Position numbers and translations under genes: made by a program
DNA from: Catenuloplanes indicus
Lineage (GTDB): Bacteria > Actinomycetota > Actinomycetes > Mycobacteriales > Micromonosporaceae
Reading direction: 5' to 3'
Length of the DNA stretch: 64,000 nucleotides
NCBI RefSeq assembly: GCF_030813715.1
Contig: NZ_JAUSUZ010000001.1
Coordinates: 62,001-126,000 of the forward strand
Part shown: piece by piece, positions 8,012 through 21,979 of the stretch
Numbering within the stretch: the stretch's first letter is position 1
Layout: each line of letters opens with the position of its first letter
The notes under the pieces: model-generated
Database searches by the model: none
Seen by the model: the letters and a program-made list of their open reading frames with translations, nothing else
Told to the model about the DNA's origin: nothing

Positions 8012-9148
8012 TCAGGGTTTGGCGAGGGAGCGGGCGATGACGAGGCGCTGGATCTGGTTGGTGCCCTCGACGATCTGAAGGAGTTTGGCCTCGCGGAACC
8101 AGCGTTCGACCGGGTGGTCGGTGACGTAGCCGGCGCCGCCGAGGATCTGGACGGCGTCGGTGGTGACGCGCATGGCGGTGTCGGTGGCGAAGAGTTTGGC
8201 CTGGGCGGCCTCGGTGCTGAACGGCAGGCCTGCGTCGCGGAGGCGGGCGGCGGTGTAGAGCAGGGCGCGGGCGGCGCTGATGCCGGTGGCGGCGTCGGCG
8301 AGCAGGAAGCCGATGCCCTGGAAGTCGATGATGCGGGAGCCGAACTGGGTGCGTTCGCGCGCGTAGGCGACGGCGTGGTCCAGGGCGGCCTGGGCGAGGC
8401 CGACGGCGCAGGCGGCGATGCCGAGGCGGCCGGCGTCGAGCGCGGACATCGCGATCCGGAAGCCCTGGCCCTCGGCGCCGACCAGGCGGTCGGCGGGCAC
8501 CCGGGCGCCGGTGAGCACGACCTGGGCGGGTGCGCCGGCGTGCAGGCCCATCAGGCGTTCGCGGGGCTGTGGCGCGAGGCCGGTCGTGGTGGCGTCGAGC
8601 AGCAGGCAGGAGATGCCGCGCGGGCCGGGCTCGCCGGTGCGGGCGAAGACGGTGTAGAAGTCGGCGCTGCCGGCGTGCGTGATCCAGGCCTTGGTGCCGT
8701 CGACGACGTAGTGGTCGCCGTCCCGGACCGCCCTCGTGGTCAGCGCGGCGGCGTCGGAGCCGCCGGCCGGCTCGGACAGGCAGTACGCGCCGAGCAGCTC
8801 ACCGCCGATCATGTCGGGTACGAGCTTGCGCAGCCGGTCGTCGCCGTGGACCGCGGCCGGATAGCAGGAGAGCGTGTGCACGCTGACCGCCTCGGCCACG
8901 GTCAGCCACCGGTACGCGAGGCGCTCCAGCACCCGCAGGTACACCTCGTAGGGCTGGCCGGCGCCGCCCAGCTCCGCGGGGTAGGGCAGGCCGAGCAGGC
9001 CGGCCCGGCCGAGCGTGCGGACGATCTCGCGGGGGAACTCGCCGCGTGCCTCGTGATCGGCGGCGGCCGGCGGGGTCAGCTCGCCGTCGGCGATCTCTTC
9101 GACGAGGCCGAGCAGGTCGCGGGCCTCCTCGGAGGGTGGGATCCACAT
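8012..9148 (-). CDS. Acyl-CoA dehydrogenase
   Basis: 378 aa, full length for the family, with the N-terminal helical, middle beta and C-terminal helical domains. Visible signatures are YCLSEPAGGSDAAAL near residue 145 (flavin/substrate contact), QILGGAGYVTDHPVERWFRE near 335, and the catalytic base glutamate in IVEGTNQIQR near 362. The enzyme oxidises an acyl-CoA thioester to the 2-enoyl-CoA with FAD, passing electrons to ETF. Chain-length preference cannot be judged, but the glutamate position is that of short/medium-chain types. It is transcribed divergently from the aldo/keto reductase across a 52-bp gap with ACGGTCG repeated twice, a possible regulator site. Confidence 0.93.
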   Translation of the reverse strand: MWIPPSEEARDLLGLVEEIADGELTPPAAADHEARGEFPREIVRTLGRAGLLGLPYPAELGGAGQPYEVYLRVLERLAYRWLTVAEAVSVHTLSCYPAAVHGDDRLRKLVPDMIGGELLGAYCLSEPAGGSDAAALTTRAVRDGDHYVVDGTKAWITHAGSADFYTVFARTGEPGPRGISCLLLDATTTGLAPQPRERLMGLHAGAPAQVVLTGARVPADRLVGAEGQGFRIAMSALDAGRLGIAACAVGLAQAALDHAVAYARERTQFGSRIIDFQGIGFLLADAATGISAARALLYTAARLRDAGLPFSTEAAQAKLFATDTAMRVTTDAVQILGGAGYVTDHPVERWFREAKLLQIVEGTNQIQRLVIARSLAKP

Positions 9149-9200
9149 CGGCCAAGGTTAACGGTCGTTAGGGCGTACGGTCGAGTAACGTCTCCAGATC

Positions 9201-10178
9201 ATGGAGTACACGCGGCTCGGCTCGACCGGTCTGAAGGTTTCCCGGATCTGCCTCGGCATGATGACCTACGGTTCGCCGTCCTGGCGCGAATGGGTGCTGG
9301 ACGCGGAGGCCGGCAAGCCGATCGTGCGCCGCGCGGTCGAGCTCGGCGTGACGTTCTTCGACACCGCGGACATGTACTCGGTCGGCGGCAGTGAGGAGGT
9401 CACCGGCCGGCTGCTGCGCGCGTTCTTCCACCGCCGGGACGACTACGTGCTGGCGACCAAGGTCTACCACCCGATGGGCGACGGGCCGAACGACCGCGGC
9501 CTCTCCAGGAAGCACATCCTCTCCTCGATCGACGACTCGCTGCGCCGGCTCGGCACCGACTACGTCGACCTGTACCAGATCCACCGGTGGGACTACGACA
9601 CGCCGATCGAGGAGACCATGGAGGCGCTGCACGACGTGGTGCGTGCCGGCAAGGCCCGCTACATCGGCGCGTCCAGCATGTTCGCCTGGCAGTTCGCCAA
9701 GGCGCAGCACGTCGCGGCGGTCAACGGCTGGACCCGGTTCGTGTCCATGCAGCCGCAGTACAACCTGGTCTACCGCGAGGAGGAGCGGGAGATGCTGCCG
9801 CTCTGCGCGGACCAGGGCGTCGGCGTGATCCCGTGGAGCCCGCTCGCCCGCGGGCTGCTGGCCGGCTCGCGGACCCGGGAGGGCCTGCACACCACCCGGG
9901 CCCGGACCGACGCGATCGCCCGCGACCTGTACACCGACGACGATCTCACGGTCGCGGAGGAACTGCGCCGGATCGCGGACGCGCGTTCGCTGCCGCCGGC
10001 CCAGGTCGCGCTGGCCTGGTTGCTGTCCCGGCCGGTGGTCACCGCGCCGATCGTGGGCGCGTCCCGGACCGCGCACGTCGAGGACGCGGCCGCGGCGGTC
10101 ACCGTGTCGCTCACCCCGGAGGAGATCGCGGCGCTCGAGGCGCCGTACCGGCCGCACGCGGTGACCGACCACGGCTGA
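9201..10178 (+). CDS. Aldo/keto reductase
   Basis: 325 aa (beta/alpha)8 NADPH-dependent oxidoreductase. The start MEYTRLGSTGLKVSRICLG is typical of the AKR branch related to potassium-channel beta subunits and YajO/Gpr. The tetrad is visible: Asp and Tyr in FFDTADMYS near residue 56, Lys in LATKVYHPM near 87, His in YQIHRWD near 129. The C-terminal NADPH-binding segment is PIVGASRTAHVEDA. The carbonyl substrate is unknown. It is divergent from the acyl-CoA dehydrogenase and 56 bp before the glycoside-hydrolase-like gene. Confidence 0.93.
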   Translation: MEYTRLGSTGLKVSRICLGMMTYGSPSWREWVLDAEAGKPIVRRAVELGVTFFDTADMYSVGGSEEVTGRLLRAFFHRRDDYVLATKVYHPMGDGPNDRGLSRKHILSSIDDSLRRLGTDYVDLYQIHRWDYDTPIEETMEALHDVVRAGKARYIGASSMFAWQFAKAQHVAAVNGWTRFVSMQPQYNLVYREEEREMLPLCADQGVGVIPWSPLARGLLAGSRTREGLHTTRARTDAIARDLYTDDDLTVAEELRRIADARSLPPAQVALAWLLSRPVVTAPIVGASRTAHVEDAAAAVTVSLTPEEIAALEAPYRPHAVTDHG

Positions 10179-10234
10179 CCGGCCAACTTCCCGGAAACCC
10201 CGGACAAAAGCGAATACGGCGACAAAATGATCAG

Positions 10235-12520
10235 GTGACGGGATCCCATCGTGCGCCGGGCCGACACCACCAGATCCAGCCTGCGGGCAACTCGCGCTGG
10301 CGCTGGCTCGTCGGCATGGGCGCGGTGATCGCGCTCGGCGCGTTCGGCGTGCACCAGGTGCTGGCCGACGAGGCCCCGCCCGCCACGCCGGTCCCGGAGT
10401 TCACCAGCCGGATCGCCGGTGTGACCGGCCTGCCCGCGCCGCCCGCGGACGCGGCGAGCTGGGCCGCGCACCGGCGGATCGCCGGGAACGGGCTGAAGGT
10501 GGTCGCGCAGGCGATGGGCGAGCAGTTCGTGCTGCACACCGCGTCCGGCAGCAAGACGTTCCTGCCCGGCGTCAACCTCGGCTCGACCACGCCCGGCCAC
10601 CAGCCGGGCGAGCTGGCGATCACGGCGGAGGACTACCGGGCCTGGTTCGCCGCGATGGACCGGATGGGCATCCGCGTCGTCCGGATCTACACGATCCACC
10701 CGCCGGCGTTCTACCAGGAGCTGGCCGCGCACAACCGGAAGAACCCGGACCGGCCGCTCTACCTGAGCCAGGGCGTGTACCTGCCGGACGAGTCCTACGC
10801 GCGCACCGGCGACCTCTACGACGACGCGGTCACCACTGCGTTCATCCGGGAGCTCAAGGACGCGTCCGCCGCGGTGTCCGGCGCGCTGGAGCGCGAGCCG
10901 CAGCGAGGGCGTGCGCACGGCACCTGGACCGCGGACGTCAGCCCGTGGCTCGCCGCGTGGATCATCGGCGTGGAGTGGGACCCGAACGGCGTGCACGAGT
11001 CCGACCGGAAGAACGCGAAACGCCCGCTCTTCGCCGGCCGGTACTTCGCGGCGACCGCGAACGCCTCGCCGACCGAGCGGTGGCTGGCCACCCGGATGGA
11101 CAATCTGGCCTCGGCCGAGGCCGCCCGCGGCCGCAGCGCGCCGATCGCGTTCGTGAACTGGCCGACCACCGACCCGCTGCGGCACCCGGAGGAGCCGCTG
11201 CCGCAGGAGGACCTGGCCGGCGTGGACGCGAACCACGTGCGGGCCACCGAGGCGTGGCCGGGCGGCACGTTCGCCAGCTACCACGCCTACCCGTACTACC
11301 CGGACTTCCAACGGCACGAGCCGGCGTTGCAGCAGGCGATCTACAACGGCCGGCCGGACGCGTACGCCGGGTATTTGACCGCGCTGCGCCGCCACCACGC
11401 GGGCATGCCCGTGATGATCACGGAGTTCGGCGTACCGTCGAGTCTCGGCACCGCGCACGCCGGACCGCTCGGCCGCGGCCAGGGCGACCACAGCGAGCGT
11501 GAGGCGATGACGATCAACGCGGAGCTGCTGCGCGTCATCCGCGGCACCGGCATGGCCGGTGGTTTCCTGTTCGGCTGGGCCGACGAGTGGTTCACGTTCA
11601 CCTGGAACACGATCGCGCACCAGCTGCCCGCGGACCGGCGGCAGCTGTGGCACGACCCGCTCACCAACGAGCAGCATTTCGGGATCGTCGCGACCGACCC
11701 GACCGGGCCGCCGGAGGGCTGGCCGCAGCAGGTGCTGGACGCGCCGGAGTCGCCGATCGCGACGCGTGCCGTGGCCGCGGTGGACGAGTCGTACCTCTCG
11801 CTGGGTCTGGTTCTGGCGAAGCCGGCGCCGAAGGCGCTGACGCTGGGCCTGGACGTGATCCCGGAGATCGCCGGCAGCCCGCCGCCCGGCTCCACCGACG
11901 AGGGCGCGGACCTGGCGATCCAGCTGGACCTGGCGGCGCTGACCGGTCAGGTGTGGGTGCGCGAGCAGCTGGACCCGATGCCGCTGGACTACCAGGTGCC
12001 GGCCGGGCTGCGGCCGAAGCCGGTCAACGGCTGGCAGCGCTACCAGCTGATCATCAACCGGGACCTGACCGTGCCGTCCACCGGGCGGAAGCTGCCGGCC
12101 GAGCTGTTCGACGTGGGCCGGCTCAACCACGGCGTATGGGACCCGGCCGGGCAGGACGCGGACAACCGGAACCTGTGGCGGCTCACCGACGACGGCACGC
12201 TGACCATGCGCATCCCGTGGGCGTTCGCCGGCTTCGCCGACCCGTCGTCGCTGCAGGTGCTGGTTCCGGACGGGAACGTCGCGACCACCAGGACCGCCAC
12301 CGGGGTACGGGTCCGGCTGGCCGCGGACGGCAAGCTGGAGCCGCTGGAGGAGATCGCGTGGGAGCCGTGGAACCGGGTCTACTACACCGAACGGCTGAAG
12401 GCCGGTGCCGAGCTGCTGCGCGAGGCGCTGATCGAGACCGCGGCCGGTGCACTGCCCGCGCCGTCCTCGTCCCCGGCACCGTCCGTGACGACGTCCCCGA
12501 ATGACGGCACGGTGGGTTAG
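10235..12520 (+). CDS. Membrane-anchored glycoside hydrolase-like protein
   Basis: 761 aa from the GTG at 10235; a later ATG at 10316 would cut into the hydrophobic anchor (about residues 20-40, WRWLVGMGAVIALGAFGV). The exported part resembles clan GH-A TIM-barrel enzymes: FLPGVNLGSTTPG near 110, RMGIRVVRIYTIHPP near 150, an acid/base candidate in IIGVEWDPN near 245, and a nucleophile candidate in MPVMITEFGVPSS near 395. The C-terminal 260 residues are a beta-rich module. It probably hydrolyses or remodels a glycan at the cell surface, which fits the nearby envelope glycosyltransferases. The exact GH family is not assignable by eye. Upstream Shine-Dalgarno pairing is weak. Confidence 0.7.
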   Translation: MTGSHRAPGRHHQIQPAGNSRWRWLVGMGAVIALGAFGVHQVLADEAPPATPVPEFTSRIAGVTGLPAPPADAASWAAHRRIAGNGLKVVAQAMGEQFVLHTASGSKTFLPGVNLGSTTPGHQPGELAITAEDYRAWFAAMDRMGIRVVRIYTIHPPAFYQELAAHNRKNPDRPLYLSQGVYLPDESYARTGDLYDDAVTTAFIRELKDASAAVSGALEREPQRGRAHGTWTADVSPWLAAWIIGVEWDPNGVHESDRKNAKRPLFAGRYFAATANASPTERWLATRMDNLASAEAARGRSAPIAFVNWPTTDPLRHPEEPLPQEDLAGVDANHVRATEAWPGGTFASYHAYPYYPDFQRHEPALQQAIYNGRPDAYAGYLTALRRHHAGMPVMITEFGVPSSLGTAHAGPLGRGQGDHSEREAMTINAELLRVIRGTGMAGGFLFGWADEWFTFTWNTIAHQLPADRRQLWHDPLTNEQHFGIVATDPTGPPEGWPQQVLDAPESPIATRAVAAVDESYLSLGLVLAKPAPKALTLGLDVIPEIAGSPPPGSTDEGADLAIQLDLAALTGQVWVREQLDPMPLDYQVPAGLRPKPVNGWQRYQLIINRDLTVPSTGRKLPAELFDVGRLNHGVWDPAGQDADNRNLWRLTDDGTLTMRIPWAFAGFADPSSLQVLVPDGNVATTRTATGVRVRLAADGKLEPLEEIAWEPWNRVYYTERLKAGAELLREALIETAAGALPAPSSSPAPSVTTSPNDGTVG

Positions 12521-12538
12521 CGCGGTAGGTTCTTCGGC

Positions 12539-13000
12539 GTGGAGGAGATCGACGGGGCGATCGTGACGGCGCTGACCGCGGACGGGCGGCTGTCGTACAC
12601 GGACCTCGCGGAACGCGTCGGCCTGTCGGTGTCGGCCGTGCACCAGCGGGTGCGTCGCCTGGAGCAGCGCGGCGTGATCAAGGGCTACACCGCGCGCGTC
12701 TCGTACGAGGCGATCGACCTGCAGCTCACCGCATTCGTGGCGATCCGGCCGTTCGACCCGTCGCAGCCGGACGACGCGCCGGAGCGGCTGGCCCACCTGC
12801 CGGAGATCGAGTCGTGCTACTCGGTGGCCGGCGAGGACTTCTACATGCTGCTGGTCCGGGTGGCCAGTCCCGGCGAGCTGGAACGGCTGCTGCAGCAGAT
12901 CCGCACCGCCGCGAACGTGACCACCCGCACCACCGTGGTGCTCTCCACGCCGTACGAGGGACGCCCGCCGACGGTCAGCGCGAGTTCCACTCCAGAATGA
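12539..13000 (+). CDS. Lrp/AsnC-family transcriptional regulator
   Basis: 153 aa with the classic two-domain layout. An N-terminal winged helix-turn-helix (IVTALTADGRLSYTDLAERV then VSAVHQRVRRLEQRGVIKGY) is followed by an AsnC/RAM ligand-binding domain (FVAIRPF, IESCYSVAGEDFYMLLVRV). Such proteins are octameric feast/famine regulators that sense amino acids. The gene starts with GTG 18 bp after the preceding stop and its end overlaps the convergent phosphatase gene by 26 bp. Lrp-type regulators often control neighbouring amino-acid genes, so the lysine aminomutase locus 3 kb away is a possible target. That is inference only. Confidence 0.92.
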   Translation: MEEIDGAIVTALTADGRLSYTDLAERVGLSVSAVHQRVRRLEQRGVIKGYTARVSYEAIDLQLTAFVAIRPFDPSQPDDAPERLAHLPEIESCYSVAGEDFYMLLVRVASPGELERLLQQIRTAANVTTRTTVVLSTPYEGRPPTVSASSTPE

Positions 13001-13541
13001 CCGGCCGGCCGTGCTCGAACCCGAGCCGGCACAGCGTGGCGGTGTCCAGCCGGAGCCGCCCGCCGACGCGGACCGGCTCCTCGATCCACCGGGCCCCGGC
13101 CACACGCAGCGCGTGACCGTGCGCGACCAGCGCGACGTCGCCGTGCCGCAGGTGTTCCCGGGCACGCGCCAGGACCCGGTCGAGGCGGGCACCGATCCGC
13201 TCCGGTGACTCGCCGCCGGGGACGCCGTCGTCCCAGAGGTACCAGTCCGGGTCGGTGCGGTGGATCTCGGCCGTGGTGATGCCCTCATAGGCGCCGTAGT
13301 CCCACTCGGCCAGGTCGTCGTCGATCGCGGTCACCCCGAGGCCGGCCAGCTCCGCGGTCCGCCGCGCGCGGATGCGCGGGCTGCACAGCACGGCCGCGAA
13401 CTCGCGTCCCTTGATCTTCGCGCCGATCGCGCGCGCCTGCTCCTCGCCCGCGGCCGTGAGGGGGATGTCGGTGCGGCCGGTGTGCCGCCCGGCGACGCTC
13501 CACTCGGTCTGCCCGTGCCGTACGAGAACGATCTCCGCCAT
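12975..13541 (-). CDS. Histidine phosphatase (phosphoglycerate mutase-like)
   Basis: 188 aa. The catalytic RHG motif is at residues 8-10 (IVLVRHGQTEW) and the second histidine is in LVAHGHALRVAGARW near 150. The WDYGAYEG segment near 88 is the conserved acid/phosphate loop of this superfamily. The family removes phosphate from small sugars, alpha-ribazole phosphate or proteins via a phosphohistidine. With a B12-dependent aminomutase nearby, a cobalamin role (CobC-like) is possible but not supported by specific residues. The 3' end overlaps the Lrp-type gene. Confidence 0.88.
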   Translation of the reverse strand: MAEIVLVRHGQTEWSVAGRHTGRTDIPLTAAGEEQARAIGAKIKGREFAAVLCSPRIRARRTAELAGLGVTAIDDDLAEWDYGAYEGITTAEIHRTDPDWYLWDDGVPGGESPERIGARLDRVLARAREHLRHGDVALVAHGHALRVAGARWIEEPVRVGGRLRLDTATLCRLGFEHGRPVILEWNSR

Positions 13542-13672
13542 GGTCGTCAGTCAACCAGACCGGGTTTCCGGCTAGCCTCCTAGGAAGGACACGCCACGGT
13601 CTGTTTGGCGGCCGGGCAGAGTGGAGACGTTCCGGAGTGCAGGTCAACGACGCAGACACCGGAGGTACGACG

Positions 13673-13873
13673 ATGAGCTTCACCGACAAGATCCGGAACA
13701 AGGTCGACGAGCTGAAGGGCGAGACCAAGGAGAAGGCGGGCGACGCGACCGACAACCCGCGTCTGCAGGCCGAGGGTTCCGCCGAGGCGACCGCGGCCCG
13801 GGGCCGTCAGGCCGGCGAGCACGTCAAGGACGCCGCCCGCGACGTGAGCGACGCGATCCGCGGACACCGCTGA
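13673..13873 (+). CDS. CsbD-family stress protein
   Basis: 66 aa, hydrophilic, beginning MSFTDKIRNKVDELKGE. The KxKxxELKGxxKEKxGDAT pattern and the short acidic/basic helix content are typical of CsbD-like proteins, which accumulate under general stress in many bacteria; their molecular role is unknown. The ATG at 13673 is chosen because GGAGG lies 7 nt upstream; an upstream GTG at 13637 has no such site. A strong hairpin follows immediately, so the gene is a single unit. Confidence 0.85.
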   Translation: MSFTDKIRNKVDELKGETKEKAGDATDNPRLQAEGSAEATAARGRQAGEHVKDAARDVSDAIRGHR

Positions 13874-13880
13874 ACGTCAC

Positions 13881-13920
13881 CGTCGAGGGGCCCGGACAGG
13901 TGAGTCCGGGCCCCTCGACG
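13881..13920. terminator. Strong hairpin between convergent genes
   Basis: A perfect 16-bp inverted repeat (CGTCGAGGGGCCCGGA and its complement) with an 8-nt loop lies 7 bp after the CsbD-family stop. The convergent amine oxidase gene ends at 13994. The stem can serve both directions; there is no U-tract, as is usual in high-GC actinomycetes. Confidence 0.8.
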
Positions 13921-13993
13921 TGGGCAGCGCGTGCATGACCTGGCCACGGCGGTGAAGCCGGCGCGGGGTGCGGCGGGCCGGCCGGTGCGGCGA

Positions 13994-15151
13994 TCATGCG
14001 GCGGCGTGCAGCACGTCGGTGAGCACGCGGGTGGTGATGTCGTGGTCGGTGCCGGTCCAGAGGGTGTCGAGCCAGGGGCCGGCGAGGAGCCCGACGAGCG
14101 TGGGGGTGCCGTCCGCGTCGGTGGCGTCGAGCCATTCGCTGATCGCGCCGTCCGTGGGTCCGTGGATGCGGAAGTACCCGGTGTGCGGCCAGAACCGGTC
14201 GGTGGCGCGGAGGATGATCTTTTCGACGCGTCCCATGCCGAGGTGGCCGAGCGCGGTGCGGTGCGCGGCCGGGAGCGCGGGAGTGAACGTGATGTCCGGC
14301 AGTGCGCCGATCGGTACGGTGACGATCACGGCGTCGGTCCGGAGTCCGTCGACGGACACGCCGTCCGCGGTGTCGGTGATGGTGCGGACGGGTGTGCCGA
14401 GGCGGATGTCGAGGCCGTCGGCGAGGTGGTCGACGAGGCGCTGGTAGCTGCCGATGATCCATCGGTCGCCGTCGCCGACGCCGGGCTCGAAGCCGTGGCG
14501 GGCGCTGAGCCAGCCGAGGTCGGCGCCGGTGTCCATGACGATCTCGGAGTCGACGAGCCGGCGGAGTGCGGCCGGTGGTGCCGGCCAGGCGGCGAGGACG
14601 TCGGCGACGGACGCGTGTTCCGGTGCGGCGGCGAGCCGGGCGCGCAGTTGGCGTTCCAGGTCGTCGAGACCGGACCCGAATGCCGTGGGTACGACCGGGA
14701 GCGCGAGCTTCTCGGCAAGGCGCGCGAGGACGTTGTCGTCGTACTGCTGGAGCCAGTTCGCGCCGAGGTCGAAGGTGAACCCGCCGACGTCGGTGCCGGT
14801 GGTGCGGCCGCCGGTGCGGTGCCGGGCCTCAAGGACACGCGTGGTGATGCCGCGGGCGCGCAGGTGCTGTGCGGCGCCGAGGCCGGCCATGCCGGCGCCG
14901 ATGACGGTGACGTCGCGGTGTCCGTGGCCGGCGGCCCAGGCGGCGGCCTCGATGCCCTGTTCGTGGGCGCCGTGGGTCATGCCGGCGCGGGTCGGGTGGG
15001 TGGCCTCGCCGGCGAGGCGGATGCGGTCGCGGATCGGGGTGCCGAGCGTGGCGCGGTCGGCGGGGCTGCCGTGCCGTCCGATGAGGCTCCAGGATCCGCG
15101 GCTCCAGGGGTTGTCGGCCCAGTGGGTGACGGCGCTGGCGGTGATCGGCAC
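13994..15151 (-). CDS. Flavin amine oxidase with circularly permuted FAD domain
   Basis: 385 aa. Canonical MAO/polyamine-oxidase proteins start with the Rossmann GxGxxG motif and end with a second FAD-contacting stretch (W, RGSY, GEAT, HGA, SG). Here the second stretch is at the N terminus: THWADNPWSRGSWSL (9-23), RLAGEATH (46-53), MTHGAHEQGIEAA (58-70). The dinucleotide motif follows (VIGAGMAGLGAAQHL at 83-97, with GGRTTG at 114-119). The C terminus stops at LVGLLAGPWLDTLW...DVLHAA, exactly where the moved segment normally begins. All parts are present once, so this looks like a real permutation and not a truncation. The GTG start lies 10 bp after the kamA stop with no good Shine-Dalgarno, implying translational coupling. 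Likely an FAD amine oxidase acting on an amine linked to lysine metabolism; substrate unknown. Confidence 0.82.
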   Translation of the reverse strand: MPITASAVTHWADNPWSRGSWSLIGRHGSPADRATLGTPIRDRIRLAGEATHPTRAGMTHGAHEQGIEAAAWAAGHGHRDVTVIGAGMAGLGAAQHLRARGITTRVLEARHRTGGRTTGTDVGGFTFDLGANWLQQYDDNVLARLAEKLALPVVPTAFGSGLDDLERQLRARLAAAPEHASVADVLAAWPAPPAALRRLVDSEIVMDTGADLGWLSARHGFEPGVGDGDRWIIGSYQRLVDHLADGLDIRLGTPVRTITDTADGVSVDGLRTDAVIVTVPIGALPDITFTPALPAAHRTALGHLGMGRVEKIILRATDRFWPHTGYFRIHGPTDGAISEWLDATDADGTPTLVGLLAGPWLDTLWTGTDHDITTRVLTDVLHAAA

Positions 15152-15161
15152 GGCGGGGAGG

Positions 15162-16496
15162 TTAGCAGTGCGTGGCCCAGTGGTCGCGGCCTTTTCGGGG
15201 GAGGGTGTGGATCGGGTCGTAGTAGTGGTGGCGGGCGTCGACGGTGTCGTCGGTGAGGGTGGTGCGGTAGTTCTTGGTCCAGTGCGTGATGCCGAGGTCG
15301 CGGTCGTAGCCGGTGGCCATGTGGACCCAGCGTTTGCCGACGTAGGGGACGTCGCAGACGATGCGCGGGGTGGCGTAGCCGGGCAGGTATCCCATGATGT
15401 CGTGCTGGAGGGTCTGGGCCCGGTGGACGGGCAGCCGCCAGTGCTCGGCGCCGGGGATCATGTCGCACAGGTAGAGGTAGTAGGGCAGGATGCCGGCGTC
15501 GTCCTGCAGGGCGAAGCAGAGGTCGAGCAGGTCGTCGGCGGTGTCGTTGACGCCGTGCAGCAGGACGCCCTGGTTGCGGACGTCGCGCACGCCGATGTCG
15601 AGCATGGCGTGTGCGGCGCGGGCGACCAGCGGGGTGATGCTGTTCGCGTGGTTGATGTGGGTGTGGACGGCGAGGTTGACGCCGCGGCGGGCGGCGGTGC
15701 GGGCGACGCGTTCGAGGCCTTCGACGACGTGCGGCTGGAGCCAGTGCTGGGGTAGTCCGGCGAGGGCCTTGGTGGCGAGGCGGATGTCGCGGACGGTGTC
15801 GAGGTCGAGCAGGCGCATGAGGTAGGTCTCGAGTTGCCGCCAGGGGACGTTGGCGATGTCGCCGCCGGAGACGACCACGTCGCGGACCGTGGGGTGGGCG
15901 CGCAGGTAGTCGAGGTGGGCGTCGTGCCGGTCGACGGGTTTGAGCGCGAGTTTGAGCTTGGTGACCGCGGGGGTGTCGGTGCCGACGAGGTCCATCCGGG
16001 TGCAGTGCCCGCAGTATTGCGGGCAGGTGGGGACGAGTTCGGCGAGGACCTTGGTGGGGTAGCGGTGGGTGAGCCCGTCGGCGACCCACATGTCGTGTTC
16101 GTGGAGTGAGTCGCGGGTGGCGTACGGGTGGTCGGGTAGCCGTTCGCCGGCGAGCGGGAGCATGTAGCGGCGGATCGGGTCGGCGCGCAGGTCGGCGGTG
16201 TCCATGGTGTTGAGCATCTGGGGTGGCAGCAGCATGGTCATGGTGGCGCGGGTCGCCTGGTCGGCGGCGAGGTCGTCGTAGAAGGTGTCGTCGGCGAGGT
16301 CGCCGAGGACGTGCCGCAGCTGGCGGATGTTCCGGATGCAGTGGGCGCGTTGCCACTGGGCGGATTCCCACTGGTCGCGGGTGGTGTGCCGCCAGCCGGG
16401 GAGGCGGGTCCAGTCGGGTTCGTGGAGGGGACGGCGGGTGTAGGTGTAGGGCTGCCGTACTTCGTGGAGTGTGCTGGTCACGACGGCCTCCGACAT
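15162..16496 (-). CDS. kamA: Lysine 2,3-aminomutase (KamA family radical SAM)
   Basis: 444 aa. The radical-SAM cluster motif is CPQYCGHC (Cys158, Cys162, Cys165), in the CxxxCxxC form. Further KamA-type features are VVVSGGDIANVPW near 225, NQGVLLHGVND near 325 and YYLYLCDMIPGAEHWR near 350. The family uses SAM, a 4Fe-4S cluster and PLP to convert L-lysine to L-beta-lysine. Glutamate or arginine 2,3-aminomutases are close relatives, but the neighbouring kdd, kamDE and kal genes favour lysine. The ATG at 16496 is chosen for its GGAAGA site and the match of its N terminus; a longer frame would run across the divergent promoter region into kdd. It is followed after 10 bp by the permuted amine oxidase gene. 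Confidence 0.9.
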   Translation of the reverse strand: MSEAVVTSTLHEVRQPYTYTRRPLHEPDWTRLPGWRHTTRDQWESAQWQRAHCIRNIRQLRHVLGDLADDTFYDDLAADQATRATMTMLLPPQMLNTMDTADLRADPIRRYMLPLAGERLPDHPYATRDSLHEHDMWVADGLTHRYPTKVLAELVPTCPQYCGHCTRMDLVGTDTPAVTKLKLALKPVDRHDAHLDYLRAHPTVRDVVVSGGDIANVPWRQLETYLMRLLDLDTVRDIRLATKALAGLPQHWLQPHVVEGLERVARTAARRGVNLAVHTHINHANSITPLVARAAHAMLDIGVRDVRNQGVLLHGVNDTADDLLDLCFALQDDAGILPYYLYLCDMIPGAEHWRLPVHRAQTLQHDIMGYLPGYATPRIVCDVPYVGKRWVHMATGYDRDLGITHWTKNYRTTLTDDTVDARHHYYDPIHTLPRKGRDHWATHC

Positions 16497-16544
16497 TGGT
16501 TTTTCTTCCGTATGCCGCAGATTACTGGAAATCCTCCGGCACAG

Positions 16545-16554
16545 AGAATATTCT
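16545..16554. promoter_or_regulatory. AT-rich perfect palindrome in kamA-kdd divergent promoter
   Basis: AGAATATTCT is a perfect 10-bp palindrome in an 86-bp divergent gap that is far more AT-rich than the surroundings (for example AAGTTTTATTG at 16560-16570). Such a site is a plausible operator or the core of overlapping divergent promoters for both arms of the lysine locus. No regulator can be named with confidence. Confidence 0.4.
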
Positions 16555-16582
16555 GCCGTAAGTTTTATTGTCGGAGGTGGAT

Positions 16583-17584
16583 GTGGTGGTCGACGTTCCG
16601 GGCGCGCACCGCGTCCTCGGCCCGCCGGGTGTGCTGCCCCAGGCGGCGTGGCGGCTGGATCCCGATCCGGCGTTGAAGGACACCGCCGAGACACGGGTAC
16701 GGGTGGAACGGCTGAACCTCGACGCGGCGAGTTTCCGGCAGCTGCGGGACGCGCACGGTGACCGGGTGCGCGACGAGGTTCTGCGGATCGTGGCCGAGCG
16801 CGGCAAGATGCACAACCCGGTGACCGGTTCCGGCGGCATGCTGATCGGCGTGGTCGAGGAGTCCGGTCCGGACGCGACCGTGGGCGTGCGGCCGGGGGAC
16901 CGGATCGCGACGCTGGTCAGCCTGACGCTGACGCCGTTGACGATCACGGACGGGCTGGCCCGGTGGGACGGCCGGGCGGAGCAGGTGCCGTGCGACGGGT
17001 TCGCGATCCTGCACGGGCGTACCGTCGCCGCGGTCCTGCCGGGCGATCTGGATGCGGCGCTGGCGCTGGCCGTGTTCGACGTGTGCGGCGCGCCGGCGCT
17101 GACCGCGCGCGTGGTGGCCGGCTACCACCGGCCGGTGGTCGCGGTGATCGGCGGGTCCGGGAAGTCCGGTTCGCTGTCGCTGGCCGCGGCCCGGCGGGCC
17201 GGCGCGAGCCGCACCGTCGGCGTCTGTCCGGACGGGACCGAGGCGGCGCGGCTGCGCGAGTCCGGCCTGGCCGACGAGATCGTGGTCGCGGACGCGCGCG
17301 CGCCGATCGGCGGGGTCCGCGCGGACGTGACGGTCGTGTGCGTGGACGTGCCCGGCTGCGAGCACGCCGCGATCCTGGCCACCCGGGACGGTGGCACGGT
17401 GGTGTTCTTCTCGATGGCGACCAGTTTCACCGCGGCCGCGCTCGGCGCGGAGGGCCTGGCCGCGGACGTGACGCTCCTGATCGGCAACGGTTATGTGCCC
17501 GGCCACGCCCGGATGGCACTGGACCTGATCCGCGCCACGCCGGGCCTGCGGCAGTTGTTCACCCGGCGACTGCGGGCAGACTGA
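16583..17584 (+). CDS. kdd: L-erythro-3,5-diaminohexanoate dehydrogenase
   Basis: About 333 aa. The N terminus (DVPGAHRVLGPPGVLPQAAWRLD) resembles the family opening with a THRVIEPKGVLPQPAWKLD-like pattern, and a Rossmann motif VIGGSGKSGSLSLAAARRAG lies near residue 190. Kdd oxidatively deaminates 3,5-diaminohexanoate to 5-amino-3-oxohexanoate with NAD(P)+, the third step of lysine fermentation. The start is either GTG 16583 or GTG 16586, 5 or 8 nt after GGAGG; an earlier TTG at 16568 precedes the ribosome site and is unlikely. It is divergent from kamA, and a repeat-bearing gap follows. Confidence 0.88.
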   Translation: MVVDVPGAHRVLGPPGVLPQAAWRLDPDPALKDTAETRVRVERLNLDAASFRQLRDAHGDRVRDEVLRIVAERGKMHNPVTGSGGMLIGVVEESGPDATVGVRPGDRIATLVSLTLTPLTITDGLARWDGRAEQVPCDGFAILHGRTVAAVLPGDLDAALALAVFDVCGAPALTARVVAGYHRPVVAVIGGSGKSGSLSLAAARRAGASRTVGVCPDGTEAARLRESGLADEIVVADARAPIGGVRADVTVVCVDVPGCEHAAILATRDGGTVVFFSMATSFTAAALGAEGLAADVTLLIGNGYVPGHARMALDLIRATPGLRQLFTRRLRAD

Positions 17585-17594
17585 CCGAATGAGC

Positions 17595-17642
17595 GAGCTT
17601 GCGAGCGAATCATCGGCTCAGCGCCGGCCACCACGACACCGC
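17595..17642 (+). repeat. 48-bp direct repeat, copy 1
   Basis: Begins GAGCTTGCGAGCGAATCATC and ends CCACGACACCGC; identical over 48 bases to the copy at 17670-17717. It lies 10 bp after the kdd stop in the gap before the amidohydrolase gene. Confidence 0.9.
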
Positions 17643-17669
17643 CGCATGTCCGGGGAGCCCGGCACATGT

Positions 17670-17717
17670 GAGCTTGCGAGCGAATCATCGGCTCAGCGCC
17701 GGCCACCACGACACCGC
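17670..17717 (+). repeat. 48-bp direct repeat, copy 2
   Basis: Second identical copy, offset by 75 bases from the first, ending 20 bp before the amidohydrolase ATG. It therefore also forms the immediate 5' leader of that gene, which shows no clear Shine-Dalgarno except GTGGGGGA. Confidence 0.9.
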
Positions 17718-17737
17718 GGCGGCGTGGGGGATCCGGC

Positions 17738-19249
17738 ATGAGCGTTCTCTACAGGAGCGGCGTCGTCCATTCCGCCGCGGATCCGCGGGCGACCGCACTG
17801 CTCGTCGTCGACGGGAAGATCGCCTGGCTGGGCGCGGACGATGACGCGCCGTCCGCGGACCGGGTCGTCGACCTGGACGGCGGGCTGGTCACGCCCGCGT
17901 TCGTGGACGCGCACGTGCACGCCACGTCGACCGGCCTGAACCTGGCCGGCCTGGACCTGACCGCGGCCCGGTCCGCGCGCGACGTGCTGGACGCGGTCGC
18001 GGCCAAGGCCGGCGAGCTGCCTGCGGACGGGGTGCTGCTCGGCCACGGCTGGGACGAGTCGACGTGGGAGTCGCCGGAGCTGCCGTCCGCGCACGAGATC
18101 GGCGTGGCCGCCGGCGGCCGGCGCGTCTACCTGTCGCAGGTGTCCGTGCACTCCGCGCTGGTGTCGTCCGCGCTGCTGGAGGCCGACCCGACGATCACGG
18201 CCGCGGCCGGGTTCGACTCCTCCGGCTGGTTGCGCGTCGACGCCCACCACACGGTCCGCGACCTTGCCCTGGCATCGGTCACGCCGGCGCAGCGCCGGCA
18301 CGCGCAGCACGTCGCGCTCGCCCACGCGGCCACGCTCGGCATCGGTGCGGTCCACGAGTGCGGCGGCCCGCGGATCTCCAGTGAGGACGACTTCACCGAC
18401 GTGCTCGCCGCGGGCGGCCCGGCGCACGGCCACCCGGAGGTGTTCGGCTACTGGGGCGAGCTCGGCGCGGCCGCGAAGGCGAGGGAGCTGGGCGCGGTCG
18501 GGGCCGGCGGTGACCTGTTCGCGGACGGCGCGCTCGGTTCCCGGACCGCGTACCTGGAGCACGCGTACGCGGACGAGCCCGGCAGCCGCGGTCACGGCTA
18601 CCTGACCGCGGCACAGGTCCGCGATCATCTGCTGGACTGTCACGCGCACGGGATGCAGGGCGGGTTCCACGCGATCGGGGACGCCGCGATCGGCGCGGTC
18701 CTGGCCGGGATCGGCGAGGCCGCGGAGAAGGTCGGCAACGAGGCGGTCCGGGCGGCCCGGCACCGCATCGAGCACGCGGAGCTGCTGGACCGGACGCTGA
18801 TCGCCCGGATGGTCGAGCACGGCGTGGTGGCGTCCGTGCAGCCGGCGTTCGACCGGCTGTGGGGCGGCGGGACGCGGATGTACGCGGCCCGGCTCGGCCG
18901 GGAGCGGGCGCTGACCGCGAACCCGTTCGCCGCCATGCACAACGTGGGCGTACCGCTGGCATTCGGGTCGGATGCGCCGGTGACGCCGCTGGACCCGTGG
19001 GGCACGGTCCGCGCGGCCGTGCACCACCACACCCCGCACAGCCGGATGGGGGTGCGGGCCGCGTTCGCCGCGCACACCCGCGGCGGCTGGCGGGCGCTGC
19101 CGGGCACGGTGGCCGGTGGCGCGGTCGAGCCGGGCGCACCGGCGACGTTCGCGGTCTGGGACGCGGTGGCGGACCTGGCCGCCGCGGTCGAGTCGACGCC
19201 GGTGTGCCGGCGGACCGTGGTGCACGGGAGCACGATCCACGACATCTGA
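17738..19249 (+). CDS. Amidohydrolase family metal-dependent hydrolase (YtcJ-like)
   Basis: 503 aa of the Amidohydro_3 type. A small beta-sandwich start (VLYRSGVVHSAADP) leads to the first metal motif TPAFVDAHVHAT near residue 55. Further metal/catalytic residues are in GGFHAIGDAAIGAV near 310, RHRIEHAEL near 345, and FGSDAPVTPLDPW near 410. These enzymes hydrolyse C-N bonds of amides, formamides or cyclic ureas with one or two zinc ions. Its place between kdd and kamD, in the same direction and 17 bp before kamD, suggests it acts on a lysine-derived lactam or N-acyl compound. It is not a BKACE/Kce protein, which would be expected in this pathway. Confidence 0.85.
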   Translation: MSVLYRSGVVHSAADPRATALLVVDGKIAWLGADDDAPSADRVVDLDGGLVTPAFVDAHVHATSTGLNLAGLDLTAARSARDVLDAVAAKAGELPADGVLLGHGWDESTWESPELPSAHEIGVAAGGRRVYLSQVSVHSALVSSALLEADPTITAAAGFDSSGWLRVDAHHTVRDLALASVTPAQRRHAQHVALAHAATLGIGAVHECGGPRISSEDDFTDVLAAGGPAHGHPEVFGYWGELGAAAKARELGAVGAGGDLFADGALGSRTAYLEHAYADEPGSRGHGYLTAAQVRDHLLDCHAHGMQGGFHAIGDAAIGAVLAGIGEAAEKVGNEAVRAARHRIEHAELLDRTLIARMVEHGVVASVQPAFDRLWGGGTRMYAARLGRERALTANPFAAMHNVGVPLAFGSDAPVTPLDPWGTVRAAVHHHTPHSRMGVRAAFAAHTRGGWRALPGTVAGGAVEPGAPATFAVWDAVADLAAAVESTPVCRRTVVHGSTIHDI

Positions 19250-19266
19250 TCAATCTGGAGGGTGCG

Positions 19267-20838
19267 ATGGCCGGGAAGCTCGATCTGGACCCGGAGCTGG
19301 TGGCGCGGGCCCGGACGTTGGCGGCGCGGGCCGGGCGGCCGGTCGTCGACCTGGCCCGCACGCACACCACGGTCAGCGTGGAGCGGGCGATGCTGCGCCT
19401 GTTCGGGCTGACCGGCGCGGACGCGGACGGCACGCCGTGGGTGAACCGGCTGACCGACGCGGTGACCGCGCAGACCGGCCTGACCCACGGCGTGGTGCTG
19501 CCGGTGCTGCACGCGCTGCGCCGGTTCCAGCCGCTGTCGGCACCCGCGGCCGCGTACGGTGACGGGTTGCGGACGCTGGCGGAGAAGGCGCCGTCGATCG
19601 ATTTCACGCTGCCGTCCGGCCGGGACGCGGTGACCGTGCGGAACGCGGCCGGGCGGTTGGCCCGGCACGCGGTGAAACGGCTGGACGCGGCCCGGGCGAC
19701 CCGGGAGCGGCTGATCCGGCGGTACGGGGACCCGCCGCGCCGGCCGTGGATCTACCTGATCGTGGCGACCGGTGACATCCACGAGGACGTCCCGCAGGCG
19801 GTCGCGGCGGCCCGGGCCGGTGCGGACGTGATCGCGGTGATCCGGTCGACCGGCCAGTCACTGCTGGACTACGTGCCGGAGGGCGCGACCCGGGAGGGCT
19901 TCGCCGGCACGTACGCGACGCGGGAGAACTTCCGGCTGATGCGGGCCGCGCTGGACGGCGTGTCCAGGGAGCTGGGCCGGTACGTGCGGCTGACGAACTA
20001 CGCCAGCGGCCTGTGCATGCCGGAGATCGCGGCGCTGGCCGGGCTGGAACGGCTGGACATGATGCTCAACGACAGCATGTACGGGATCCTGTTCCGGGAC
20101 ATCAACCCGATCCGGACGTTCGTCGACCAGCGGTTCTCCCGGCAGATCCACGCCCGCGCCGGGATCATCATCAACACCGGTGAGGACAACTACCTGACCA
20201 CCGCGGACGCGGTCACCGAGGCGCACACCGTGACGGTGTCGCAGTTGCTCAACGAGTACTTCGCGCACGAGGCCGGGCTGGCCGACGCGCAGCTCGGGCT
20301 CGGGCACGCGTTCGAGATCGACCCGGACCTGCCGGACTCGCTGCGCCTGGAGATCGCGCACGCGCTGCTGGCCCGGGAACTGTTCCCGGACGCGCCGCTG
20401 AAGTGGATGCCGCCGACGAAGCACATGACCGGGGACGTGTTCCGCGGGAACCTGCTCGACGGCATGTTCAACCTGGTCGGCGCGCTGACCGGGCAGCAGA
20501 TCCTGCTGGTCGGGATGATGACCGAGGCGGTGGTGACGCCGTGGCTGTCCGACCGGGACATCGCGCTGCAGAACGTGCGGTACGTGCTGTCCGCGGCCGG
20601 GAACATGGCCGAGGACCTGGTGCCGGCGCCGGGCGGGTTCGTGCAGCGGCGCGCGCACACGGTGCTGGCGGAGGCGGTCGCGCTACTGGAACGGATCGTG
20701 GACGAGTCGCTGCTGACCGCGATCGGCCGCGGCACGTTCGGGATCATGAAGCGGCCGCCGGACCGGGGGCGCGGGCTGTCCGGCGTGGCCCCGATATCGC
20801 AGATGTACCACAATCCGTTCGAGGGGTTGCTGTCATGA
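19267..20838 (+). CDS. kamD: Lysine 5,6-aminomutase alpha subunit
   Basis: 523 aa, the expected size for the large PLP/adenosylcobalamin-binding TIM-barrel subunit. Recognisable stretches are GKLDLDPELVARARTLA at the start, DLARTHTTVSVERAMLRLFG near 40, LTNYASGLCMPEIAALAG near 245, and LKWMPPTKHMTGD near 380. The enzyme moves the terminal amino group of D-lysine or L-beta-lysine from C6 to C5. With kamA present, beta-lysine to 3,5-diaminohexanoate is the likely reaction. GGAGGG precedes the ATG and the gene overlaps kamE by ATGA. Confidence 0.93.
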   Translation: MAGKLDLDPELVARARTLAARAGRPVVDLARTHTTVSVERAMLRLFGLTGADADGTPWVNRLTDAVTAQTGLTHGVVLPVLHALRRFQPLSAPAAAYGDGLRTLAEKAPSIDFTLPSGRDAVTVRNAAGRLARHAVKRLDAARATRERLIRRYGDPPRRPWIYLIVATGDIHEDVPQAVAAARAGADVIAVIRSTGQSLLDYVPEGATREGFAGTYATRENFRLMRAALDGVSRELGRYVRLTNYASGLCMPEIAALAGLERLDMMLNDSMYGILFRDINPIRTFVDQRFSRQIHARAGIIINTGEDNYLTTADAVTEAHTVTVSQLLNEYFAHEAGLADAQLGLGHAFEIDPDLPDSLRLEIAHALLARELFPDAPLKWMPPTKHMTGDVFRGNLLDGMFNLVGALTGQQILLVGMMTEAVVTPWLSDRDIALQNVRYVLSAAGNMAEDLVPAPGGFVQRRAHTVLAEAVALLERIVDESLLTAIGRGTFGIMKRPPDRGRGLSGVAPISQMYHNPFEGLLS

Positions 20839-21545
20839 AGGTCCGGCCCTACGGGGACACCACCGGCGACGGGATGGTGCAGACGTCGTTCACGCTGCCC
20901 GTCCCGGCCGGGAAACGCGCCGACGGCGCCGCCCTGCAACTCGCGGCCGCGATGGGCCTGGACCCGGCGATGCTGGTGCACGCGCGGCCGGTCGGTGCCG
21001 GGCACACGTTCTTCGTCGTCTACGGCCGGGTCCGGCACCTCGTCGACCTGGACGCGGTGCGGGTCACCGCGCGCGACTACCCGCTGCTGTCCGCGGCCGC
21101 GGTCAACGCCGCGGTCCGGCGCCGGCTGCGCCGCAAGCTCACGGTCGTCGGCGCGTGCATCGGCACCGACGCGCACACCGTCGGCATCGACGCGATCCTC
21201 AACCTCAAGGGCGTCGCGGGGGAGAAGGGCCTGGAGTGCTACCGGGAACTGTCCGTGACGAACCTCGGCGCGCAGGTGCCGATCGCGGACCTGGTCGAGG
21301 CGGCCGCCGGTGCGGACGCGGTCCTGGTGTCCCAGGTGGTCACCCAGCGCGACGCCCACCTGCACAACGTGCGGGAGCTGGCCGCGGCGTTCCGGACCCG
21401 GCCGGGCCGGCGTCCGCTGCTGATCGTCGGCGGCCCCCGGTTCGACGAGACGATGGCCGCGGACCTCGGCGTCGACCGGATCTTCGGGCGCGGCACCACG
21501 CCCCGGGAGGTCGCCTCCTACCTCGTGCACCGGCTCGCCGCATGA
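20835..21545 (+). CDS. kamE: Lysine 5,6-aminomutase beta subunit
   Basis: 236 aa. The Rossmann-like cobalamin domain carries the base-off/His-on motif DAHTVG, with His114 as predicted cobalt ligand (IGTDAHTVGIDAIL). Lys125 stands eleven residues later, the spacing of the PLP-binding lysine relative to the ligand histidine in clostridial KamE (His133/Lys144). The end (LLIVGGPRF and DRIFGRGTTPREVASYL) is typical of B12-binding domains. It pairs with KamD, to which it is coupled by ATGA, and it overlaps kal in the same way. Function requires adenosylcobalamin; no B12 synthesis genes are in the window. Confidence 0.93.
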   Translation: MKVRPYGDTTGDGMVQTSFTLPVPAGKRADGAALQLAAAMGLDPAMLVHARPVGAGHTFFVVYGRVRHLVDLDAVRVTARDYPLLSAAAVNAAVRRRLRRKLTVVGACIGTDAHTVGIDAILNLKGVAGEKGLECYRELSVTNLGAQVPIADLVEAAAGADAVLVSQVVTQRDAHLHNVRELAAAFRTRPGRRPLLIVGGPRFDETMAADLGVDRIFGRGTTPREVASYLVHRLAA

Positions 21546-21979
21546 TCGGCCTGACCGTCAGCCACCGCCGGTACGTGGCGCACGCCCACTACGGCGGCGG
21601 GCTCGTCGACGGCGCGTACGCGCTCGCCCTGTTCGGGGACGTCGCCACCGAGGTGTGCATCCGCACCGACGGTGACGAGGGCCTGTTCGCCGGGTACGCC
21701 GACGTGCGCTTCCTCGCCCCGGTCCGGGCCGGTGACGTGGTCGAGGCGACCGCGGTCGTGGTCGCGGCCGGCACCCGCTCCCGGCGGCTCGACCTGCGCC
21801 TGACCGTGCTCTGCCGGGCCCGCCGCGACCTGCGCCCGTCCGCGGCCGAGGTCCTCGACCCGCCGCTGCTGGCCGTCACCGCCACCGGCACGGTCGTCGT
21901 CCCGATCGGACACCCGCACGGTCCCACGGAAGTGGGCAAGGAGGGAAACGCAACCAAAGAGAAAGCAAACCCCGGTTGA
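21542..21979 (+). CDS. kal: 3-aminobutyryl-CoA ammonia-lyase
   Basis: 145 aa hot-dog-fold protein. The stretch HAHYGGGLVDGAYALALFGD followed by ATEVCIRTDGDEGLF and FLAPVRAGDVVEA matches the lysine-fermentation deaminase Kal more closely than generic thioesterases. Kal converts L-3-aminobutyryl-CoA to crotonyl-CoA plus ammonia. It is the last gene of the operon, starting inside the kamE stop. Its presence implies that 3-aminobutyryl-CoA is made in the cell, which in the known route needs the acetyl-CoA-dependent cleavage enzyme Kce, not seen here. Confidence 0.88.
   Translation: MIGLTVSHRRYVAHAHYGGGLVDGAYALALFGDVATEVCIRTDGDEGLFAGYADVRFLAPVRAGDVVEATAVVVAAGTRSRRLDLRLTVLCRARRDLRPSAAEVLDPPLLAVTATGTVVVPIGHPHGPTEVGKEGNATKEKANPG

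Follow-up and report, generated by a model that had tools for sequence, protein, structure and literature searches.

A probable natural circular permutation of a flavin amine oxidase in Catenuloplanes indicus and related actinomycetes

The window analyzed here is a stretch of 64,000 nucleotides from Catenuloplanes indicus (contig NZ_JAUSUZ010000001.1, positions 62,001 to 126,000); all coordinates below refer to it. An open reading frame (ORF) on its minus strand encodes a putative flavin amine oxidase in which the two parts of the chain that bind flavin adenine dinucleotide (FAD) appear in exchanged order. The gene and its segments, the latter located with hidden Markov models (HMMs), are as follows.

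13994..15151, minus strand: predicted permuted flavin amine oxidase, 385 amino acids, GTG start, with a segment order common to relatives
14939..15130, minus strand: residues 8-71 (W, RGSW, AGEAT, THGA), the segment that is C-terminal in canonical enzymes and N-terminal here, recognized by an HMM from 36 canonical C-segments
14912..14938, minus strand: junction between the old C-terminal helix and Rossmann strand 1, residues 72-80, set by profile edges
14018..14911, minus strand: residues 81-378 (Rossmann part, substrate domain, conserved Lys region), which correspond to the N-terminal and middle part of canonical enzymes, recognized by an HMM from 36 canonical N-segments
14882..14899, minus strand: GAGMAG dinucleotide-binding motif, residues 85-90; G85, A86, G87, A89 and G90 are invariant in 16 diverse rows
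14219..14221, minus strand: Lys311, invariant in 10 close rows and present in 14 of 16 diverse rows

The translation reads W11, RGSW at 18-21, AGEAT at 47-51 and THGA at 59-62, followed by GAGMAG at 85-90. The first-pass annotation of this DNA had pointed out that the motif set which closes monoamine oxidases (MAO) and polyamine oxidases (PAO) stands here before the Rossmann motif; the translation, the order of PF01593 pieces and HMMs of canonical proteins all confirm this. The FAD segment with its W, G-S-aromatic, AGE and GA motifs corresponds to residues 8-71. An RxGGR motif is also present (RTGGR, residues 112-116), with R112, G114, G115 and R116 invariant in the 16 diverse rows. Lys311 presumably corresponds to the Lys conserved at the flavin site in the LSD/PAO family.

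The window protein scored 163.6 bits against PF01593 (curated cut-off 19.8). As found in a search of its own genome, the matched pieces run along the protein as profile positions 376-440, then 1-69, then 195-361; the C-terminal piece (376-440, E 7.5e-8) thus lies upstream of positions 1-69. Three other genes in the same genome matched PF01593 positions 1-442 in one stretch. The canonical order, with the Rossmann part first and the FAD segment last, is not that of the window protein, which we therefore filed as a permuted variant and not as an ordinary PF01593 member. A phmmer comparison with LSD2 gave the same picture: residues 64-153, 228-323 and 6-71 aligned with chain positions 322-412, 524-627 and 706-771, respectively, the third piece being weak when taken alone (independent E-value 1.4).

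The two canonical HMMs were each built from 36 proteins. Canonical segments were located and excised using a profile built from permuted proteins (A2) and were aligned together with permuted proteins; only canonical rows entered the HMMs, so that A2 contributed segment boundaries and not letters. The C-segment HMM covered residues 8-71 at 60.3 bits with no second copy, and the N-segment HMM matched residues 81-160 (85.5 bits) and 162-378 (140.6 bits). A swapped-order alignment had been proposed as a check in the first-pass annotation, and when residues 1-75 were moved to the end the PF01593 score, 163.6 bits before, reached 178.7 bits, and two of the three stretches that had matched separately became one. 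In all 27 permuted loci scanned for further copies, with ORFs down to 25 amino acids included and positions 9001-20000 of the window covered, the C-segment match was single. Structure models had middling confidence (predicted local distance difference test scores of 67.0 and 67.7), and the best VIA row aligned residues 76-385 only.

Both segments are homologous to their canonical counterparts, their order is exchanged and the moved segment is present once. Together with the relatives described below, these results support the earlier suggestion of a circular permutation of the MAO/PAO family, and we consider it very probable, judging from sequence comparison, that the gene encodes a member of the flavin amine oxidase (PF01593) superfamily with a natural circular permutation.

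Of 126 distinct ORFs from related loci, which were chosen by match score and not as a random sample, 76 were classified as permuted and 50 as canonical, with a few partial sequences among the 126; later loci added one permuted (L191) and 23 canonical. The 76 permuted ORFs come from 13 families, namely 12 family codes (f1, f4, f8, f21, f29, f31, f70, f91, f98, f102, f105 and f107) and Kineosporiaceae, where the Kineosporia babensis locus L017 is permuted. Within the window's family 43 of 354 genomes matched at E <= 1e-20: all five genomes of the window's genus, and others from two further genera. One locus from each of these 43 genomes reads permuted, the gene being broken in two of them (truncated in G003 and split in G061). 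At least 26 of 394 genomes of the class, the window's own included, contain a match that covers the permuted profile in one pass (from position <=8 to >=387, with few candidates scored per genome), and all 26 were classified as permuted from the DNA, repeats of earlier loci being merged. A match in G778 (L170; profile positions 3-112 at a contig edge) was too short and was left out of the classification.

The permuted profile was also run on 188 genomes of another phylum, that of a Polyangia metagenome-assembled genome. Matches were found in 70: fetched loci were canonical in 20 genomes and permuted in one (G1132, L191), which places a permuted gene outside the window's phylum, and the remaining 49 were judged by match spans alone. 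The two orders also coexist within single genomes: G905 (L093 permuted, L131 canonical), G992 (L098 and L156, respectively) and G815 (L111 and L165, respectively).

The first explanation to be weighed is that an ordinary oxidase only looks permuted, owing to misassembly, a frameshift or motifs that arose by chance. The two broken copies could be taken in its favour, though in neither is the segment order affected. It is contradicted by the 76 distinct ORFs with the same order, by the start context after kamA conserved in L006, L007 and L010, by export leaders found upstream of the moved segment (see below) and by the negative control in the other phylum, where the loci from 20 matched genomes were all canonical. 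With so many independent relatives, frameshift or misassembly, which the first-pass annotation had named as a danger to its reading, can be excluded; chance or misassembly was rejected, and we give an artefact practically no chance.

The permuted oxidase of Actinoplanes xinjiangensis (L016, L066; 5992-7395) has 467 amino acids, with an insertion of approximately 50-60 residues after the Rossmann part. The G003 copy (L009, about 1525-2055) keeps residues ~1-178 and then meets an in-frame stop; a deletion removed about residues 178-385, and the downstream flank aligns again. In G061 the oxidase lies in two pieces, residues 3-299 (C1:4348334-4349272, L045) and 273-377 (C1:4357344-4357670), ~8 kb apart and on opposite strands, pointing to a copy split by rearrangement. 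Relatives from plasmids, viruses and archaea were considered as permuted candidates and rejected, since the fetched loci (Haloarcula L128, Synechocystis pSYSM L129, Nostoc L130 and L192-L194) are canonical. Six plasmid records had joined pieces over 80% of the permuted query, and the fetched ones named here proved canonical. L192-L194 are IMG/VR contigs filed as viral; the amine oxidases they encode are canonical in order and share about 30% identity with the query.

Measured between profile edges, the junction that leads from the moved segment into the Rossmann part is 7-9 residues long in 75 of the 76 permuted ORFs; the remaining one has 13. In canonical ORFs the N-terminal part and the C-segment are separated by 8-27 residues in 47 of 50 cases and by 74-78 in the other three; structurally, this gap corresponds to a loop. 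A short linker is thus found where the canonical termini would have been joined and the new termini fall at the canonical gap, which is where the permuted chain opens.

Of the 31 permuted ORFs that lie outside the window's clade, 29 have a leader resembling those of the twin-arginine translocation (Tat) pathway ahead of the moved segment, and in 20 of these it comes with a lipobox; a home-made pattern was used in place of a trained predictor, and some lipoboxes were missed. The leader-bearing loci are L046-L049, L051, L053, L093-L097, L099-L113, L167-L169 and L191, the last recognized by eye; L052 and L098 are permuted, lie outside the window's clade and have no such leader. The window's own clade is made up of family f1 and Kineosporia; there the pattern matched one of 45 ORFs (L034), which we take as spurious. 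The architecture is kept in many relatives, both in the window's branch, which has no export signal, and in branches whose members have Tat-like leaders, frequently accompanied by a lipobox. Because 14 of 50 canonical ORFs also carry a Tat-like leader, export does not set the permuted form apart. Since these leaders stand ahead of the swapped segment, translation starts there. A longer N-terminus is impossible in L007, which is 80% identical to the window protein, due to an in-frame stop three codons upstream of its ATG.

Conservation of the moved segment was compared between permuted and canonical rows. W11, G48 and E49 are 100% conserved in both permuted and canonical rows, and A62 is conserved in 100% versus 97%; positions 21, 39 and 51 of the moved segment are looser in permuted than in canonical rows. 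The ratio of non-synonymous to synonymous substitution rates (dN/dS) against L010 was 0.25 in both segments; L010 is the Catenuloplanes japonicus locus, and L011 that of Actinoplanes sp. DH11. Against L006 it was 0.22 in the main part and 0.86 in the moved segment, and against L007 0.43 and 0.97, respectively, the moved segment having few synonymous changes in these two comparisons. The first 75 codons (14927-15151) are poor in synonymous changes, with dS of 0.07 (L006) and 0.12 (L007) versus 0.31 in the rest; this was not seen against L010.

The N-terminal segment might alternatively be left over from an upstream copy that fused with a downstream copy lacking its C-terminus, giving a non-functional or altered protein in which the canonical fold is not rebuilt. 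A tandem duplication would pass through such a state, and two Actinoplanes loci do have a separate canonical-order oxidase directly upstream (L021 2728-4167, L022 2754-4160). These upstream copies, however, have their own C-segment matches (16 and 20 bits) and share only ~31% identity with the window protein across the part that aligns; moreover, the breadth of conservation, the export signals and the motifs kept on both segments speak for function. We regard a remnant fusion as very unlikely.

A less easily dismissed alternative is that the protein has the canonical structure and is no amine oxidase, acting on another substrate (e.g. an amino acid) or as a dehydrogenase or isomerase. PF01593 spans enzymes of several activities, the conserved Lys is missing in two distant rows of the 16, and evidence on the substrate is limited to the genus-restricted kamA adjacency described below; these points count in its favour. 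Against it, the nearest solved chains are LSD2 and spermine and putrescine oxidases, and the Lys is kept in all 10 close rows. We hold another activity to be unlikely, though clearly less so than a remnant fusion. The best reading is that the window protein is a working permuted FAD amine oxidase, as predicted from its sequence.

How often the permutation arose was approached with trees of rotated sequences. The first tree was built from the 126 classified ORFs, minus five short rows and near-duplicates; its 77 rows (45 permuted, 32 canonical) imply three order changes. Candidates for the second tree also included L191 and the later canonical loci; near-duplicates and the long canonical branches L021, L120, L121, L130 and L162-L166 were left out, and its 74 rows (38 permuted, 36 canonical) imply five changes, with starred branches forcing at least two. 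Permuted rows formed one group in 0 of 200 bootstrap trees in either analysis. Forcing a single permuted clade cost 16.5 log units in the first tree (approximately unbiased (AU) test, p 0.153) and 28.7 in the second (AU p 0.105); holding the window clade together with the largest other permuted clade in the second tree gave p 0.139. A single origin is thus neither shown nor rejected, and one origin with deep divergence and several origins at the same loop are both possible. We think it possible, if somewhat doubtful, that the fold was permuted more than once at the same loop, in separate lineages of which the window's has no export signal and the others are Tat-exported, often lipoproteins, and coexist with canonical paralogues.

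The sequences show that in the permuted protein the canonical C-terminal FAD-contacting segment is N-terminal and runs through 7-9 residues into the first Rossmann strand, the chain ending near the former canonical loop into the C-terminal segment. The canonical termini are probably close together, and joining them while opening the crossover loop would keep the fold and the FAD site. The enzyme may convert an amine into the imine, O2 serving as electron acceptor. The permutation may have originated by tandem duplication followed by trimming; this is plausible, and no intermediate was found among the loci examined.

The oxidase lies beside the following genes.

15162..16496, minus strand: kamA-like radical SAM (S-adenosylmethionine) gene, below the NCBIfam TIGR03820 and TIGR00238 cut-offs
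16568..17584, plus strand: kdd, L-erythro-3,5-diaminohexanoate dehydrogenase, over the NCBIfam cut-off
19267..21545, plus strand: lysine 5,6-aminomutase, kamD (19267-20838) and kamE (20835-21545), over the NCBIfam cut-offs
21542..21979, plus strand: kal, 3-aminobutyryl-CoA ammonia lyase, over the NCBIfam cut-off

The stop of the kamA-like gene ends 10 nucleotides upstream of the oxidase start, and kdd, an amidohydrolase gene, kamD, kamE and kal diverge from these two genes. Positions 15162-21979 are a lysine-degradation gene set of the lysine-fermentation type in an actinomycete. In all 5 genomes of the genus kamA is adjacent to the oxidase, if the truncated copy of G003 is included. A tblastn search of the fetched flanks of L001-L055 (6 kb for L011-L018 and 1.5 kb for L020-L045) found kamA only in the genus loci L001 and L006-L010, and beside none of 34 loci outside the genus, at least four of which are repeats of the same place. 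Permuted homologues do not always neighbour kamA, and kamA was rejected as a general partner of permuted oxidases. Its presence is uninformative as a correlate because kamA itself is found in 351 of 354 family genomes. With an adjacency limited to the genus, lysine chemistry is a weak guess for the window enzyme and says nothing on the rest of the family. That in Catenuloplanes the oxidase is co-transcribed with kamA and acts on an amine derived from lysine or beta-lysine is such a guess, and rather an unlikely one.

Flavin amine oxidases include drug targets and biocatalysts, and many structures have been solved (106 chains matched the permuted profile). Among the best 60 of these 106 none showed the permuted order in its best stretch, which started at profile position 75 or later. 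If a large natural family of permuted oxidases is real, the two FAD-binding parts of the fold can be exchanged in the chain, natural templates for engineering are available, and the route and frequency of permutation can be tested against canonical paralogues in the same genomes. Such proteins are easily overlooked: in a domain search the window protein shows up as three ordinary PF01593 pieces.

The gene set can be compared with known lysine fermentation (KamA, KamDE, KDD, KAL). KDD, KamD, KamE and KAL beside the window gene are over cut-offs, whereas the KamA-like neighbour is below those of TIGR03820 and TIGR00238. To our knowledge a permuted oxidase does not belong to the known pathway. 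In the literature searched, most subscription papers being outside its scope, no permuted amine, monoamine, polyamine or amino acid oxidase or flavoenzyme was found to be described. The first-pass annotation knew of no described natural permutation in this family. Natural circular permutation is described in passages on SAM-dependent DNA/RNA methyltransferases, glutathione synthetase and FMN-bind1 proteins (PMC1282579, PMC2876114, PMC11334425). As far as these passages go, the likeness is that the fold is kept with the chain order exchanged; the difference is that the families are unrelated and the passages do not concern an FAD amine oxidase. The closest relatives remain the PF01593 enzymes (MAO, PAO, putrescine oxidase and LSD1/LSD2): the window protein differs from them in its exchanged segment order, but is homologous to them over most of the chain and carries the FAD motifs on both segments.
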